From positions 1 through 64,000 of the forward strand of contig QJWJ01000353.1 of the NCBI GenBank assembly GCA_003235365.1: a DNA stretch of 64,000 nucleotides, written 5' to 3'. Positions 9,967 to 63,742 of the stretch are shown here, piece after piece (the stretch's first letter is position 1; each line of letters starts with the position of its first letter). This stretch comes from Deltaproteobacteria bacterium. GTDB lineage: Bacteria > Myxococcota_A > Polyangia > Polyangiales > Polyangiaceae. Below the pieces are notes generated by a model that was not told the DNA's origin, ran no database searches, and was given only the letters and a program-made list of their open reading frames with translations. The translations under genes and the position numbers were made by a program.

Positions 9967-12306
9967 ATGCAGATACGAATTGCAAAGGGGATCCGGTCGC
10001 TGGCCACTTGGTGCGCCCTTGCCTTGACGTGGAGCTGCGACGAGGGCGCGACTGAATCGTCATCGGATGCTCGGGCGAGGAAGGGCGAACTGGACGCGGG
10101 CCACCAGACGCCGAGCGGCAAGCGCGGCGATCCGCCACAGCCAGCCAAGCCCCGAAGCGAACTCGACTCGGGAACCGCCGGACCCGCAACGGGGCCCGAA
10201 CAGACGCCGCAGGCTTCAGGCGACCCCGCTGGGCCCACGCAGTCTGCGAATGACCCGAACGATGCCAGCACCCCCGTCTCCGAGCCGACAGCGAAAACAG
10301 GGAGTCACCCCATCCTGTTCGTGACGCAAGTGCCCGTCGAAGGCTTCACCACTCTCAGTTCCACCTTCGGCAATCACCGGGGGACGATTGGTTCGGCGCC
10401 ACGCGGTGGAGATCTGATGATCCTCTACCCTGACGGAACGCTGCGCAATCTGACCCGCGAAGCTGGGTTCGGCTCCGAGGGAGAACAGCAGGACGAAAAT
10501 GCCATCGCCGTCCGCGAGCCGACGGTGCACTGGAGCGGGAAGAAGGCTGTGTTTTCGATGGTCGTGGGGGCGCCACCTCAACAGTACCAGCACGTATACC
10601 CACCGTGGCAGCTGTACGAGGTGAGCGGCCTCGAACGAGGGGAGACGGCAACCATCACCAAGGTCTCCGATCAACCCGAAGACTACAACAACGTTTCCCC
10701 CCTGTACGCCACGGACGGCGAAGACATTCTCTTCACTTCAGATCGGCCTCTGGACGGTGCAGAACACCTCTACCCGCAGCTGGACGAGTACGAAAGTGCT
10801 GCGACGGTAACTGGGATCTACCGGCTGAGCCCAGGCGATGGGGAGCTCATACTGCTCGAGCACGCACCGAGTGGCGCCTTCTCTCCCACCATCGACAGTT
10901 TCGGGCGAGTCATTTTCACCAAGTGGGATCACCTACAGCGCGATCAGCAGGCACTCCCCGATTACGAACCGATCACCTATGTCGACGAATCCCCCGATTC
11001 CGAGTCGAGCACCGAGATCGCCGGGGCCGAGGTCTTTCCCGAGGCGCGTGAAACTGAGGGTAACGTGTCAGGTCACACCTTCAATCACTTCTTCCCCTGG
11101 GAAATGAATGAAGACGGAACCGCTGAAGAGACGGTGAACCACGTTGGCCGGCACGAGTTCGGCGGGTCGTACACGGAGGGTTCGTTCACCAATGATGACA
11201 ACCTCAGCTACTATGCGCCCGAGGAGTACCACGCCAATCGCCTCTCTCTGGGCGGCGACGGTGGTACGTTTCACATCAAAGAGGACCCGCTACACCCGGG
11301 CAGCTACTACGCGACCGTGGCCCCCGAGTTCTACACCGCTGGCGGTGGACAGCTGATCCGCTTCGACGGGCATCCCTCCAAGAGCGCCGAAGAGATGGTG
11401 GTCGAAGCGGTGACCACCGAGAATGAGGGGCACTATCGAAGTCCGCTACCCTTGCGCGACGGACGACTCGTGGCCGTCTACACAGCGAGTTCCGAGTACG
11501 CCACCATCGACTATGGCGAGCGCACGACGACCAACTACGACTATCGGCTCTACGCGCTCGAGCCTTCTGGCGGATCCATGCGCGCTGCCACGGCATTGAC
11601 CGCCGGGATCAGCAAGCGCGTCACGTGGTGGGACCCCGACAGGAGTATCACCTGGGACGGTCCGCTTTGGGAGCTGGACCCCGTCGAGGTCGTTTCACGT
11701 CCCGCGCCAACACCACGAACGACGCAACTGGAGGAGCCCGAGCTCGCAGTATTGAACGAGTTGGGTGTAGATGAAGGAGAGCTACAGCGTTGGCTACGCG
11801 ACAATCAGCTAGCGCTGATCGTGATGCGCAACGTGACGCTGCGGGATCGAGCCGACCTCAATCAGCCGTACAACCTGCGTGTACCGGGTGGCACCGAAGC
11901 CATCGCGACGAGCGGTGAGGCCTATGACGTCAGCCATCTCCAAGTGTTTCAGGCCGAGGCGGTCCGTGGCTATGGTTCGATCGAGGGCCGACGCCTGTTG
12001 GCTCGTCCGCTCCGTCAGACCCCATTGTCCGAAACCGGTGTGGTCCCTGGGAGCACGGCCATCGGTGAGGACGGCTCGGTTGCCGCGTTCGTGCCCGCGC
12101 GGCGCGCACTGAGCTGGCAACTGGTCAGTCCCGAGGGTGAACCCGTGGTGCGCGAGCGCAACTGGCTTTCGTTCCAGGCGGGCGAAATCCGCGCCTGCCC
12201 CTCCTGCCACGGGATCAACGAGCTCTCCCAACTCGGCACTCCGACCCCGCAGAACGAACCCGACGCTCTGCGCGCGCTGCTCGAGCGGTGGCTCGAAGGG
12301 CGGTAA
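9967..12306 (+). CDS. Lipoprotein related to hydrazine-synthase alpha subunit-like (HzsA-like) proteins, C-terminal CxxCH
   Basis: Lipobox region CALALTWSCDEG; PILFVTQVPVEGF...GNHRGT..SAPRGGDLMILYPDGTLRNLT; DILFTSDRP; C-terminal ACPSCHGINE. Confidence 0.6.
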   Translation: MQIRIAKGIRSLATWCALALTWSCDEGATESSSDARARKGELDAGHQTPSGKRGDPPQPAKPRSELDSGTAGPATGPEQTPQASGDPAGPTQSANDPNDASTPVSEPTAKTGSHPILFVTQVPVEGFTTLSSTFGNHRGTIGSAPRGGDLMILYPDGTLRNLTREAGFGSEGEQQDENAIAVREPTVHWSGKKAVFSMVVGAPPQQYQHVYPPWQLYEVSGLERGETATITKVSDQPEDYNNVSPLYATDGEDILFTSDRPLDGAEHLYPQLDEYESAATVTGIYRLSPGDGELILLEHAPSGAFSPTIDSFGRVIFTKWDHLQRDQQALPDYEPITYVDESPDSESSTEIAGAEVFPEARETEGNVSGHTFNHFFPWEMNEDGTAEETVNHVGRHEFGGSYTEGSFTNDDNLSYYAPEEYHANRLSLGGDGGTFHIKEDPLHPGSYYATVAPEFYTAGGGQLIRFDGHPSKSAEEMVVEAVTTENEGHYRSPLPLRDGRLVAVYTASSEYATIDYGERTTTNYDYRLYALEPSGGSMRAATALTAGISKRVTWWDPDRSITWDGPLWELDPVEVVSRPAPTPRTTQLEEPELAVLNELGVDEGELQRWLRDNQLALIVMRNVTLRDRADLNQPYNLRVPGGTEAIATSGEAYDVSHLQVFQAEAVRGYGSIEGRRLLARPLRQTPLSETGVVPGSTAIGEDGSVAAFVPARRALSWQLVSPEGEPVVRERNWLSFQAGEIRACPSCHGINELSQLGTPTPQNEPDALRALLERWLEGR

Positions 12307-12314
12307 CCCCACCC

Positions 12315-12468
12315 AGAGCACCAATCAGCTTGCCAGTGCACGGAAATGCCCAGAAAAATCGCCCCAGCGGGGGCGAGGGCGTTTTTCGGGGCCACGTTCG
12401 GGCACTCTTGCTCGCAGCTCGGTGCTCTAGGTTGTTGGTTTGTCGCGACACTCAACATGATTGCCGCT
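12315..12468 (+). repeat. Copy A of ~155-bp interspersed intergenic element
   Basis: Terminal inverted repeat agagcacc (12315-12322)/ggtgctct (12421-12428); internal hairpin tcgcccc-agcg-ggggcga (12359-12376); near-identical to 38312-38466 and reverse complement of 57149-57303. Confidence 0.9.
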
Positions 12469-12801
12469 GTAGCCACGGGCAACGGCAATCGGCGGCGACG
12501 AACCACACAGCCTCCAGGTCCCCGCTCAGACGCGCCTCGGATGCACCGTGTCGCACCGTCAGCCGCTGCCGGTCGTTCCAGGGAGGTCGGACCACAACCA
12601 GGGTGGGGCGACTCGGTAATGCCCTGTGCGCGGAGGAAACACACCGAAGCGCGCCCGACCCCGAATTGGCTCACCGCGGGCGTACGAGTGCCCGCAAACG
12701 GTGGTCCTGTTTGGACCAAACCGGGAAGGGCGGAACTAGCTCCGAGGATCTGCCCGCTATCCCTGCCACATCCGGGCGAACCGCGATAACGTTCACGTTC
12801 G

Positions 12802-16799: not shown

Positions 16800-17447
16800 G
16801 TGCCATCGTTCAGCGTTCGAACTTCGCCCAATGCGACGGGCCGATTTCATCGACCTCTCTGGATCGCGCTCGCATTGACGCTTGTCGTGTCATGCGGGGA
16901 GTCAGGCGAGCCTGAACCCCAAGACCTCTCAACCCGGGACGCAGCCGACAACTTCAAACCTTGCGGAGGTGACCCGACCGGGACGTGGACGATGACGCTG
17001 CTCGTGTACGAAGGCAAGGACGACTGCTCGAAGACACGTGCTGAGTTCGAGCCCAAGAAGAGCTTTCTCTACTTTGCCGAACCACACCTCGAAAACGTTC
17101 CCGGATCGTACGTGACGACGTTCGGCTCGGATGAACCCGACGGCAGGGTCGAGAAGACGGTGGGTGACGAATGCTTGGAAGGCAGTTCTTGCGAAGCGCA
17201 TCTGGCGGATGACGACGAGCCGCCAATCTGTTCCGAAGCGAAGGACGCCTGCGTTTGTGTATTCTACGTCGCTCCGCGCGCCGACATCGCAGCGGCGTTT
17301 TGGGTCACCGACAAGCATACGCTGAAGACGACCGATTCCTCCGGCAAGACCCTGAACAGTGCCACTTACTGTGTATCGCCTGAGTACCTGGTGATCAGAA
17401 GCGACGGCGACGAGAACGACGTGTGGACCTACGTCGCAGAGCGGTAG
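16800..17447 (+). CDS. Hypothetical lipoprotein
   Basis: Signal/lipobox ALTLVVSCGESG; Cys-containing secreted domain, family not recognised. Confidence 0.55.
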   Translation: MPSFSVRTSPNATGRFHRPLWIALALTLVVSCGESGEPEPQDLSTRDAADNFKPCGGDPTGTWTMTLLVYEGKDDCSKTRAEFEPKKSFLYFAEPHLENVPGSYVTTFGSDEPDGRVEKTVGDECLEGSSCEAHLADDDEPPICSEAKDACVCVFYVAPRADIAAAFWVTDKHTLKTTDSSGKTLNSATYCVSPEYLVIRSDGDENDVWTYVAER

Positions 17448-17454
17448 ATGCTTG

Positions 17455-17484
17455 AATTGTCGCGGCAATCAACCGGATTGCCGC
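17455..17484 (+). repeat. Stand-alone copy of the tail hairpin of the interspersed element
   Basis: attgtcgcggcaatcaaccggattgccgc: stem gcggcaatc (17462-17470)/gattgccgc (17476-17484), preceded by ttgtcgcgg as in the tails of copies B and C. Confidence 0.65.
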
Positions 17485-17551
17485 ACTGGTACTGCCTTTG
17501 CTGTCGCTCAGCCACCTGCTCGACCAAGCAGGCCGGCAACCGTGCCAAACA

Positions 17552-38156: not shown

Positions 38157-38311
38157 GCGCCAAGCCACGTGGCGCAACCGTCGCTCGCCCAGCGTCGGAG
38201 AACCAGCGCTCCAGAAAGACAAGTTCCCAGTATCACCCTGGCGGGACCTGGGGCTCATTCGGACGACGGGCGGCGTGCTCCGCGTATGCAATCTGGTCGC
38301 CCACCTCCTCT

Positions 38312-38466
38312 AGGGCGCCGATCAACTTGCCAGTGTACGGAAATGCCCCGAGAAATCGCCCCAGCGGGGGTGAGGGCGTTTTTCGGGGCCACGTTCGGGC
38401 ACTCTTGCTCGCAGCTCAGTGCCCCAGGTTGTTGATTTGTCGCGGCAATCAACATGATTGCCGCTC
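38312..38466 (+). repeat. Copy B of ~155-bp interspersed intergenic element
   Basis: agggcgcc.../...gtgcccc terminal arms; tcgcccc-agcg-ggggtga inner hairpin; tail hairpin gcggcaatca-aca-tgattgccgc (38442-38464). Confidence 0.9.
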
Positions 38467-38576
38467 CAGGGGTCGGTTCTTACCCTCCGCATTTCGCCAA
38501 GCTACGAAGCCGCTCGGTGAGGAGAACCTTCGTCATCATGGCTGCGCCCATCGAGATCCGTTAAGCTATCCGGGTC

Positions 38577-56426: not shown

Positions 56427-56810
56427 GACGACAATCCGCGTCGCGAGCCGTCGCCCGCGGTCTCGTAGTGTCGTGAACGTGCCCTCCAGCAGCAAATGAA
56501 TTCGCCGCGCGGCACCCGTTCAAGGCACAGGGCGCATCCGTTGACGGCAACGACACGAGCGATGAAGCAAATCGCCGTGGCCGCGTCGAACCCGGTCCCC
56601 TCGCCACGCGACCCCAATTGGGCGCATTCGCCCACGCGTACCGACGCGTGTCCACGGGGTACCAGAAGCGCACACCCTGCTATGGCCTGGGTGTCATTTC
56701 AGCGGGTGTGCACGTGGGTAACGTTCACCAATCCAACTGCCCTTGACCGAGGCCTACATCGACGACATCGTCAACAGCATCACACAACGTCACCCAAGGG
56801 GGGAAACCGC

Positions 56811-57146
56811 GTGACGATTCTGCATTTCGAGTTGAAGCAAAGCTTGGACAACCGCTTCTTGTTCAACCTCGTCGCCGCGAGCGGTGAGATCATCCTGACG
56901 AGTAACCGCTACACGACGAAAGCGAGAGCTAGAACTGCCATTCAATCCGCACGGGTCAACGCGCTCGTCGATGTTCGCTACGACCGCCGCTTGGGGGTAG
57001 ATGGCTCCCCGTTCTTCGTTCTGCTGGACGTCAATCACGGTATTCTGGGCACGAGTGCGGCGTTCGCTTCCAGCCAAACCCGCGAGAACGTCATCGAAAC
57101 GGTGAAGATCGCGACGTCGGATGCTGGTGTGCTCGAAGTGGCCTAG
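56811..57146 (+). CDS. DUF1508 (YegP-like) domain protein
   Basis: GTG 56811 after AAGGGGGG-type RBS; RFLFNLVAASGEIILTSNRYTTKARARTAIQSARVNA. Confidence 0.75.
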   Translation: MTILHFELKQSLDNRFLFNLVAASGEIILTSNRYTTKARARTAIQSARVNALVDVRYDRRLGVDGSPFFVLLDVNHGILGTSAAFASSQTRENVIETVKIATSDAGVLEVA

Positions 57147-57148
57147 GA

Positions 57149-57303
57149 GCGGCAATCATGTTGATTGCCGCGACAAATCAACAACCTAGAACACCGAGCT
57201 GCGAGCAAGAGTGTCCGAACGTGGCCACGAAAAGCGCCCTCACACCCGCTGGGGCGATTTCTCGGGGCATTTCCGTCCACAGGCAAGCTGCTTGGTGCTC
57301 TAG
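57149..57303 (-). repeat. Copy C of ~155-bp interspersed intergenic element (inverted)
   Basis: Reverse complement contains ctagagcacc...ggtgttctag ends, cggaaatgccccgagaaatcgccccagcggg core and tail hairpin identical to copy B (57149-57171). Confidence 0.9.
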
Positions 57304-63668: not shown

Positions 63669-63742
63669 CCTACACCTAGAGCACCGAGCTGCGCGCAGAG
63701 GGGGCCGAACGTGGCCCCGAAGAACGCCCTCACCCATGCTAG
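63669..63742 (-). repeat. Copy D: partial (right-half) copy of the interspersed element
   Basis: Reverse complement gggtgagggcgttcttcggggccacgttcggcccc...gcgcagctcggtgctctaggtg aligns without gaps to the 3' part of copies A-C; left half absent. Confidence 0.75.

Follow-up and report, generated by a model that had tools for sequence, protein, structure and literature searches.

CTAG-flanked, two-module hairpin repeats of Polyangiaceae as a probable family of non-autonomous mobile DNA

MITEs of the ERIC, RUP and Correia kinds are gene-free, imperfect palindromes of 100-170 bp with terminal inverted repeats, which occupy intergenic positions in many copies, often without an autonomous partner in the genome (PMC10969869). 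REP, BIME and REPIN repeats, tagged with GTAG or CGTC, are short hairpins that form mosaic tandems, prefer the 3' ends of genes and supply TAG stop codons from the repeat terminus (PMC3733652). Apart from these tags, the repeat described here shares these features of both groups. It was found in a 64,000-nucleotide stretch of Polyangiaceae DNA (the window; QJWJ01000353.1, positions 1 to 64,000), which is one contig of a 10.4-Mb, 546-contig assembly, 96.5% complete. Our analysis of its copies indicates that it most likely represents a non-autonomous, modular, palindromic family of mobile DNA of the MITE/REP-like kind, moved in trans by a CTAG-targeting transposase.

The full-length element comprises 160 bp, has CTAG at its start and end (CTAGAGCACCGATCAG...GATTGCCGCTCTAG), shows no protein-coding capacity, and consists of hairpin module X (~110 bp) followed by hairpin module Y (~38 bp), with a further CTAG at their junction. 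Three full X-Y copies are present in the window: copy A (12313-12472, plus strand; CCAG, a mutated CTAG, on the left and GTAG on the right), copy B (38310-38469, plus strand; CTAG on the left and CCAG on the right), and copy C (57143-57303, minus strand; CTAG at both ends). Copy D (63674-63740, minus strand) is a module X without its 5' half, covering element positions 54-120, and a lone, degraded module Y hairpin (GCGGCAATCAACCGGATTGCCGC; 17445-17487, plus strand) is the fifth piece. A BLAST search with copy A within the window yielded 91% identity over 154 bp (E 5e-56) for each of copies B and C, and 87% over 70 bp (E 2e-16) for copy D. The original prediction had placed copies A to D at the right locations, far beyond chance, but with borders that were short at both ends. 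Window positions 9967-12306 encode a protein of 779 aa in which a short segment matches the middle domain of hydrazine synthase alpha (PF18582); this is probably a lookalike domain.

In module X, the closing stem P1 (CTAGAGCACCGA/TCGGTGCTCTAG) encloses the long inner hairpin P2, whereas module Y consists of GTTGTTGATTTGTC followed by hairpin P3 (GCGGCAATCA-ACA-TGATTGCCGC) and, as a CTAG-bounded unit, reads CTAG-GTTGTTGATTTGTCGCGGCAATCAACATGATTGCCGCT-CTAG. In copy A, module X with both its bounding CTAG-type tetranucleotides spans 12313-12430 and module Y, with its CTAG and GTAG bounds, 12427-12472 (P3 at 12445-12467), both on the plus strand; P2, GCCC.GAAAAA..CGCCC / GGGCG..TTTTTC.GGGC by the consensus fold and pair counts, lies at 12348-12392 on the same strand. 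Composite units are of the types X-Y, X-Y-Y, Y-Y-Y and X-Y-X-Y, neighbors in an array sharing a single CTAG, and each module also occurs alone. X-Y composites numbered 75 in the sample from this genome and 63 in that from a second genome, JAFGBI01; the X-alone and Y-alone classes include reversed and truncated copies, and modularity rests on the composite classes and the examples. The arms previously proposed as the ends of the whole element (CTAGAGCACC/GGTGCTCTAG) do pair, but both are ends of the inner module X, and the downstream module Y, although inside the span then described, had been missed as a separate hairpin. The inner hairpin tcgcccc-agcg-ggggcga, earlier taken as the conserved one, breaks in subfamily 2 (TCGCCCTAGGATCGGTGAGGGCG), where the stem CCCCGAAAAA.CGCCC/GGGCG.TTTTTCGGGG, conserved across subfamilies, persists. 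The terminal inverted repeats (CTAGAGCACCGATCAGnTTG vs CTAGAGCGGCAATCATGTTG) are imperfect and about 20 bp long; element ends begin with CTAG(G)AGC, and the ends of X-Y composites read AGC(A/G)(C/G)C(A/G)ATCA. Two further arrangements were observed: a minimal palindrome of two inverted element 5' ends (GGCGCCGATCAGCTTGCACTGGCAAGCTGATTGGTGCTC) near position 1495 of locus L140 (contig C225 of this genome), and, at three loci of JAFGBI01 (L175, L186 and L230), elements lengthened to 293-408 bp by another repeat, CTTGGCGGTGTGATCTTGACCGGATC...GCCGGCTTGG, inserted at or close to the CTAG of the X/Y junction.

A search of the host genome and its relatives, proposed along with the original prediction, recovered further copies in this genome and in two other genera. 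Here, one genome search scored at least 40 copies, mostly at 90-96% identity, and the collected loci include at least 79 distinct full-length X-Y units, with about 100 copies overall; a 25-mer from the core had 71 matches, compared with 0 for its reversed control. When one genome per species was scanned for the pattern, the matches listed included the Y hairpin in Polyangiaceae bacterium Zod_Metabat.1029 (MAG JAFGBI01), a member of another genus; whole-genome searches yielded 326-400 hairpin matches in that genome, a sample of which contained 53 distinct full-length X-Y units, and at least 10 in a representative of a third genus (G112). Within the class, the hairpin was found in only 3 of 318 genomes; the one other genome of this genus (G001) has none. 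The architecture is the same in all three genera; the length is 160 bp in this genome and JAFGBI01, and 162 bp in the G112 copy. Copies from this genome (44) and JAFGBI01 (49) align without gaps, and the two consensus sequences are identical at 21 of 22 positions of the 5' end, 30 of 73 of the interior, 31 of 37 of the junction region, and 26 of 29 of the 3' hairpin. In both genomes the borders are sharp on both sides, with background base composition outside the terminal CTAG and most inner columns 80-100% conserved.

Evidence for insertion at CTAG comes from two G112 loci (L340 and L338) with a common flanking repeat, 88% identical over 119 bp and ending in ...GGAGCCCCG-CTAG. After this flank, L340 continues as CTAG-Y and L338 as CTAG-X-CTAG-Y, which makes them an occupied/empty pair for X, exact at CTAG and with CTAG duplicated; it is the sole such pair found, and its flank is itself repetitive. 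We infer insertion of X in L338, though its precise loss from L340 could also account for the pair. Comparison with G001 gave no orthologous empty site, as synteny at the DNA level is too poor for the purpose and breaks off 1.6 kb short of copy C. The exact cut is not fixed, because about a quarter of the right ends in this genome read GCTC-CTAG and not GCT-CTAG. The CTAG is mutated in many copies, and the tetranucleotides to the left and right of a single copy are often unlike, a difference that must be attributed to subsequent mutation. In the terminal CTAG of JAFGBI01 copies, C and G are conserved at 93-98%, and T and A at 74-86%. As a separate observation, the central TA in both genomes is lost chiefly through T-to-C and A-to-G transitions, with the outer C and inner G retained, a pattern that resembles CTAG erosion by very-short-patch repair.

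Many element ends coincide with stop codons. In copy C, the Y-side terminal CTAG (57143-57146) supplies the TAG stop of a DUF1508 gene (56496-57146, plus strand). Gene calling, after training on the loci, placed 37 gene 3' ends within an element end; 34 of these genes stop with TAG and 31 end in CTAG, compared with 5% of other genes in this genome and 10% in JAFGBI01. Only three genes run deeper into an element, and CTAG is about five times less frequent in coding DNA (0.3 per kb) than between genes (1.5 per kb). Random insertion would be expected to bring only about one third of truncated frames into the TAG register, the remainder running on, yet just these three do so. CTAG insertion followed by loss of harmful insertions would therefore be enough to explain the pattern, with no search for stop codons needed. 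GTAG-tagged REPs are reported likewise to supply TAG stops to adjacent genes (PMC3733652). Short hairpin modules bounded by a TAG-containing tetranucleotide, lying between genes near their 3' ends, could be of the REP/REPIN type, with a RAYT (Y1/HUH) transposase reading the hairpins in single-stranded form and CTAG acting as the GTAG tag. This is improbable, since the units are CTAG-flanked on both sides, with a duplication that IS200/605-type insertion is not known to produce. Module Y has the size of a REP hairpin (20-40 bp with one GTAG or CGTC tag) but is bounded by CTAG on both sides.

The pairing-preserving changes reported in the original prediction are supported far beyond the data then at hand. 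Among 37 aligned copies, the shared structure is paired in 90% of cells; the covariation score is 0.218, compared with 0.099 +/- 0.006 for shuffled alignments (0 of 500 reached the observed value) and at most 0.109 for slid ones, and changes on both sides affect 166 cells, compared with 76 +/- 8, though the copies within each genome are related by descent, so that these counts overstate the number of independent events. The interior is paired in all three genera with different letters, the inner hairpin being replaced in register between genera while the ends are conserved, and comparison of the majority types of this genome and JAFGBI01 shows both partners changed in 10 of 49 pairs.

Strong covariation, a nearly constant length of 160 bp across genera and the many copies lying directly 3' of stop codons could point to a useful cis-acting or small RNA (a terminator, processing element or sRNA) amplified for that use; a structured RNA had also been among the initial suggestions. 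Several results make this very unlikely. Orientation to flanking genes is even (16 sense and 20 antisense, and 10/10), one-sided mispairs on the element strand show no excess of G.U over A.C (110 G-T vs 159 A-C), there is no Rfam match, modules X and Y also occur separately, and G001, of the same genus, has no element. A sense-strand RNA role is, accordingly, not supported. The slight A-C excess corresponds to a weak excess of G.T wobbles on the opposite strand among copies that are non-independent; selection of the hairpin on one strand, as under the REP reading, would give such a pattern.

Pairing can be kept either because the hairpin is recognized as DNA or through arm-to-arm copying in repair. 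By the latter, quasipalindrome correction would maintain the pairing with no selection involved, and the covariation would be functionally silent; this is compatible with a mobile family and may apply here, although we consider it doubtful. The inner hairpin is both the most divergent part and the longest inverted repeat, and mispairs are roughly symmetric between the strands, as such copying would predict. However, P1 and P3, which are conserved in sequence, also pair at 93-97%, and the length stays at 160-162 bp across genera, though slippage-type correction should alter it. Alternatively, the mobilizing enzyme might read the paired interior itself, so that the element would be recognized by shape, its structure fixed and its sequence free. 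It would be copied by a class of enzyme new to repeats, and its hairpin arms would be exchanged in full from genus to genus with hardly any change in length, a reading to which we give little credence.

No transposase had been visible in the window, and indeed none was present among the window genes scanned. The autonomous partner of a MITE need not reside in the same genome. Such a partner would be expected to carry the flanks CTAGAGCACCGATCAG/CTAGAGCAGCAATCA; none with matching ends was found among the Y1, DDE_3, DDE_Tnp_1 and DDE_Tnp_1_6 matches of this genome and JAFGBI01 or beside single-end copies, which turned out to be truncations and not parts of an autonomous copy. An IS630-type partner was rejected, as the element ends do not match, and an apparent 2.5-kb element-bounded unit (L249) is really two copies flanking a protein-kinase-like gene. 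Searches for viral, plasmid and phage carriage gave no match. A different MITE-like unit of 169 bp, CTAG-flanked and with perfect inverted repeats (CAGGCTGTTGAAAAACTC), lies beside an IS630-type gene in this genome (L317, contig C286, 1282-1450).

With regard to REP-type mobility, no RAYT gene (Y1_Tnp, PF01797) was matched across this 10.4-Mb, 96.5% complete assembly, and a RAYT was rejected as the mover here. JAFGBI01 does possess one Y1_Tnp gene, but no element end occurs near its locus (L278).

A DDE transposase of the IS1182 family is a more specific candidate within the preferred reading of a CTAG-targeted mobile family. A complete 1.62-kb IS1182 (L322, contig C243 of this genome, 502-2125; NF033551, 334 bits against a cut-off of 270), whose inverted repeats of 21 bp begin with CTAGGAGCG, has CTAG on either side and lies between the stop of a gene and an element copy, which it adjoins at one CTAG common to both. 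This suggests that a CTAG-duplicating transposase is, or formerly was, active here. The element might therefore be a MITE moved by this IS1182 or by a lost relative, and its ends also begin with CTAG(G)AGC; yet we propose this tentatively, as the likeness is limited to CTAG(G)AGCG, the terminal repeats diverging after GAGCG, and JAFGBI01, the genome richest in element copies, has no DDE_Tnp_1_6 match, its DDE_Tnp_1 matches being IS1634.

The original view of a MITE-like mobile hairpin element is thus upheld: the element is short and non-coding, occurs in many dispersed copies with sharp borders and terminal inverted repeats, has CTAG duplicated on both sides, and is represented by one occupied/empty pair. 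In the mechanism that we propose, each module would be a DNA hairpin or inverted repeat, which a transposase acting in trans would insert at CTAG; duplication of this target would leave the unit between two CTAGs. Units inserting at each other's CTAG ends would create the X-Y composite, later spread as one 160-bp element. Surviving copies would sit between genes, given the scarcity of CTAG in coding sequence and its ability to form a stop (C-TAG), and often right on a TAG stop left intact by the duplication. The folded shape would be kept while the sequence drifts, either since the machinery recognizes hairpin ends or arms, or since the arms of the palindrome correct each other. Besides the single occupied/empty pair, the variable right ends and the unlike flanking tetranucleotides, two points count against this explanation: no autonomous element sharing its complete terminal repeats was found among the transposase families searched in this genome and JAFGBI01, and a MITE that depends only on its ends for movement would not be obliged to preserve full pairing and a fixed interior length from genus to genus.

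The family, with hundreds of copies in one genome (JAFGBI01), is unusually well documented as to its modularity, its targeting of CTAG and stop codons, and an interior fixed in shape and variable in sequence. One 160-bp architecture with at least three different, still paired interiors offers a natural experiment on whether a palindrome is maintained by its recognizer or by DNA repair, and landing on CTAG stops illustrates a way for a repeat to multiply in a gene-dense genome while leaving genes intact. No earlier description of the element in myxobacteria was found in the open-access papers searched, and this repeat family of Polyangiaceae, of the established MITE/REP-like kind, appears to be undescribed. 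Unlike REP, BIME and REPIN repeats, its units are flanked by CTAG on both sides, the composite is longer, and the genome has no RAYT. With the IS1182 family it shares the CTAG on both sides of the complete copy, whose ends begin with CTAGGAGC, but the terminal repeats diverge beyond GAGCG and the element has no coding region. From ERIC, RUP and Correia it is set apart, by description, by CTAG and not TA as the duplicated target, by two separable CTAG-bounded modules, and by its occurrence in another phylum; TA, however, lies within CTAG, and the staggered part may be that TA, as in the TA duplication of ERIC, RUP and Correia.
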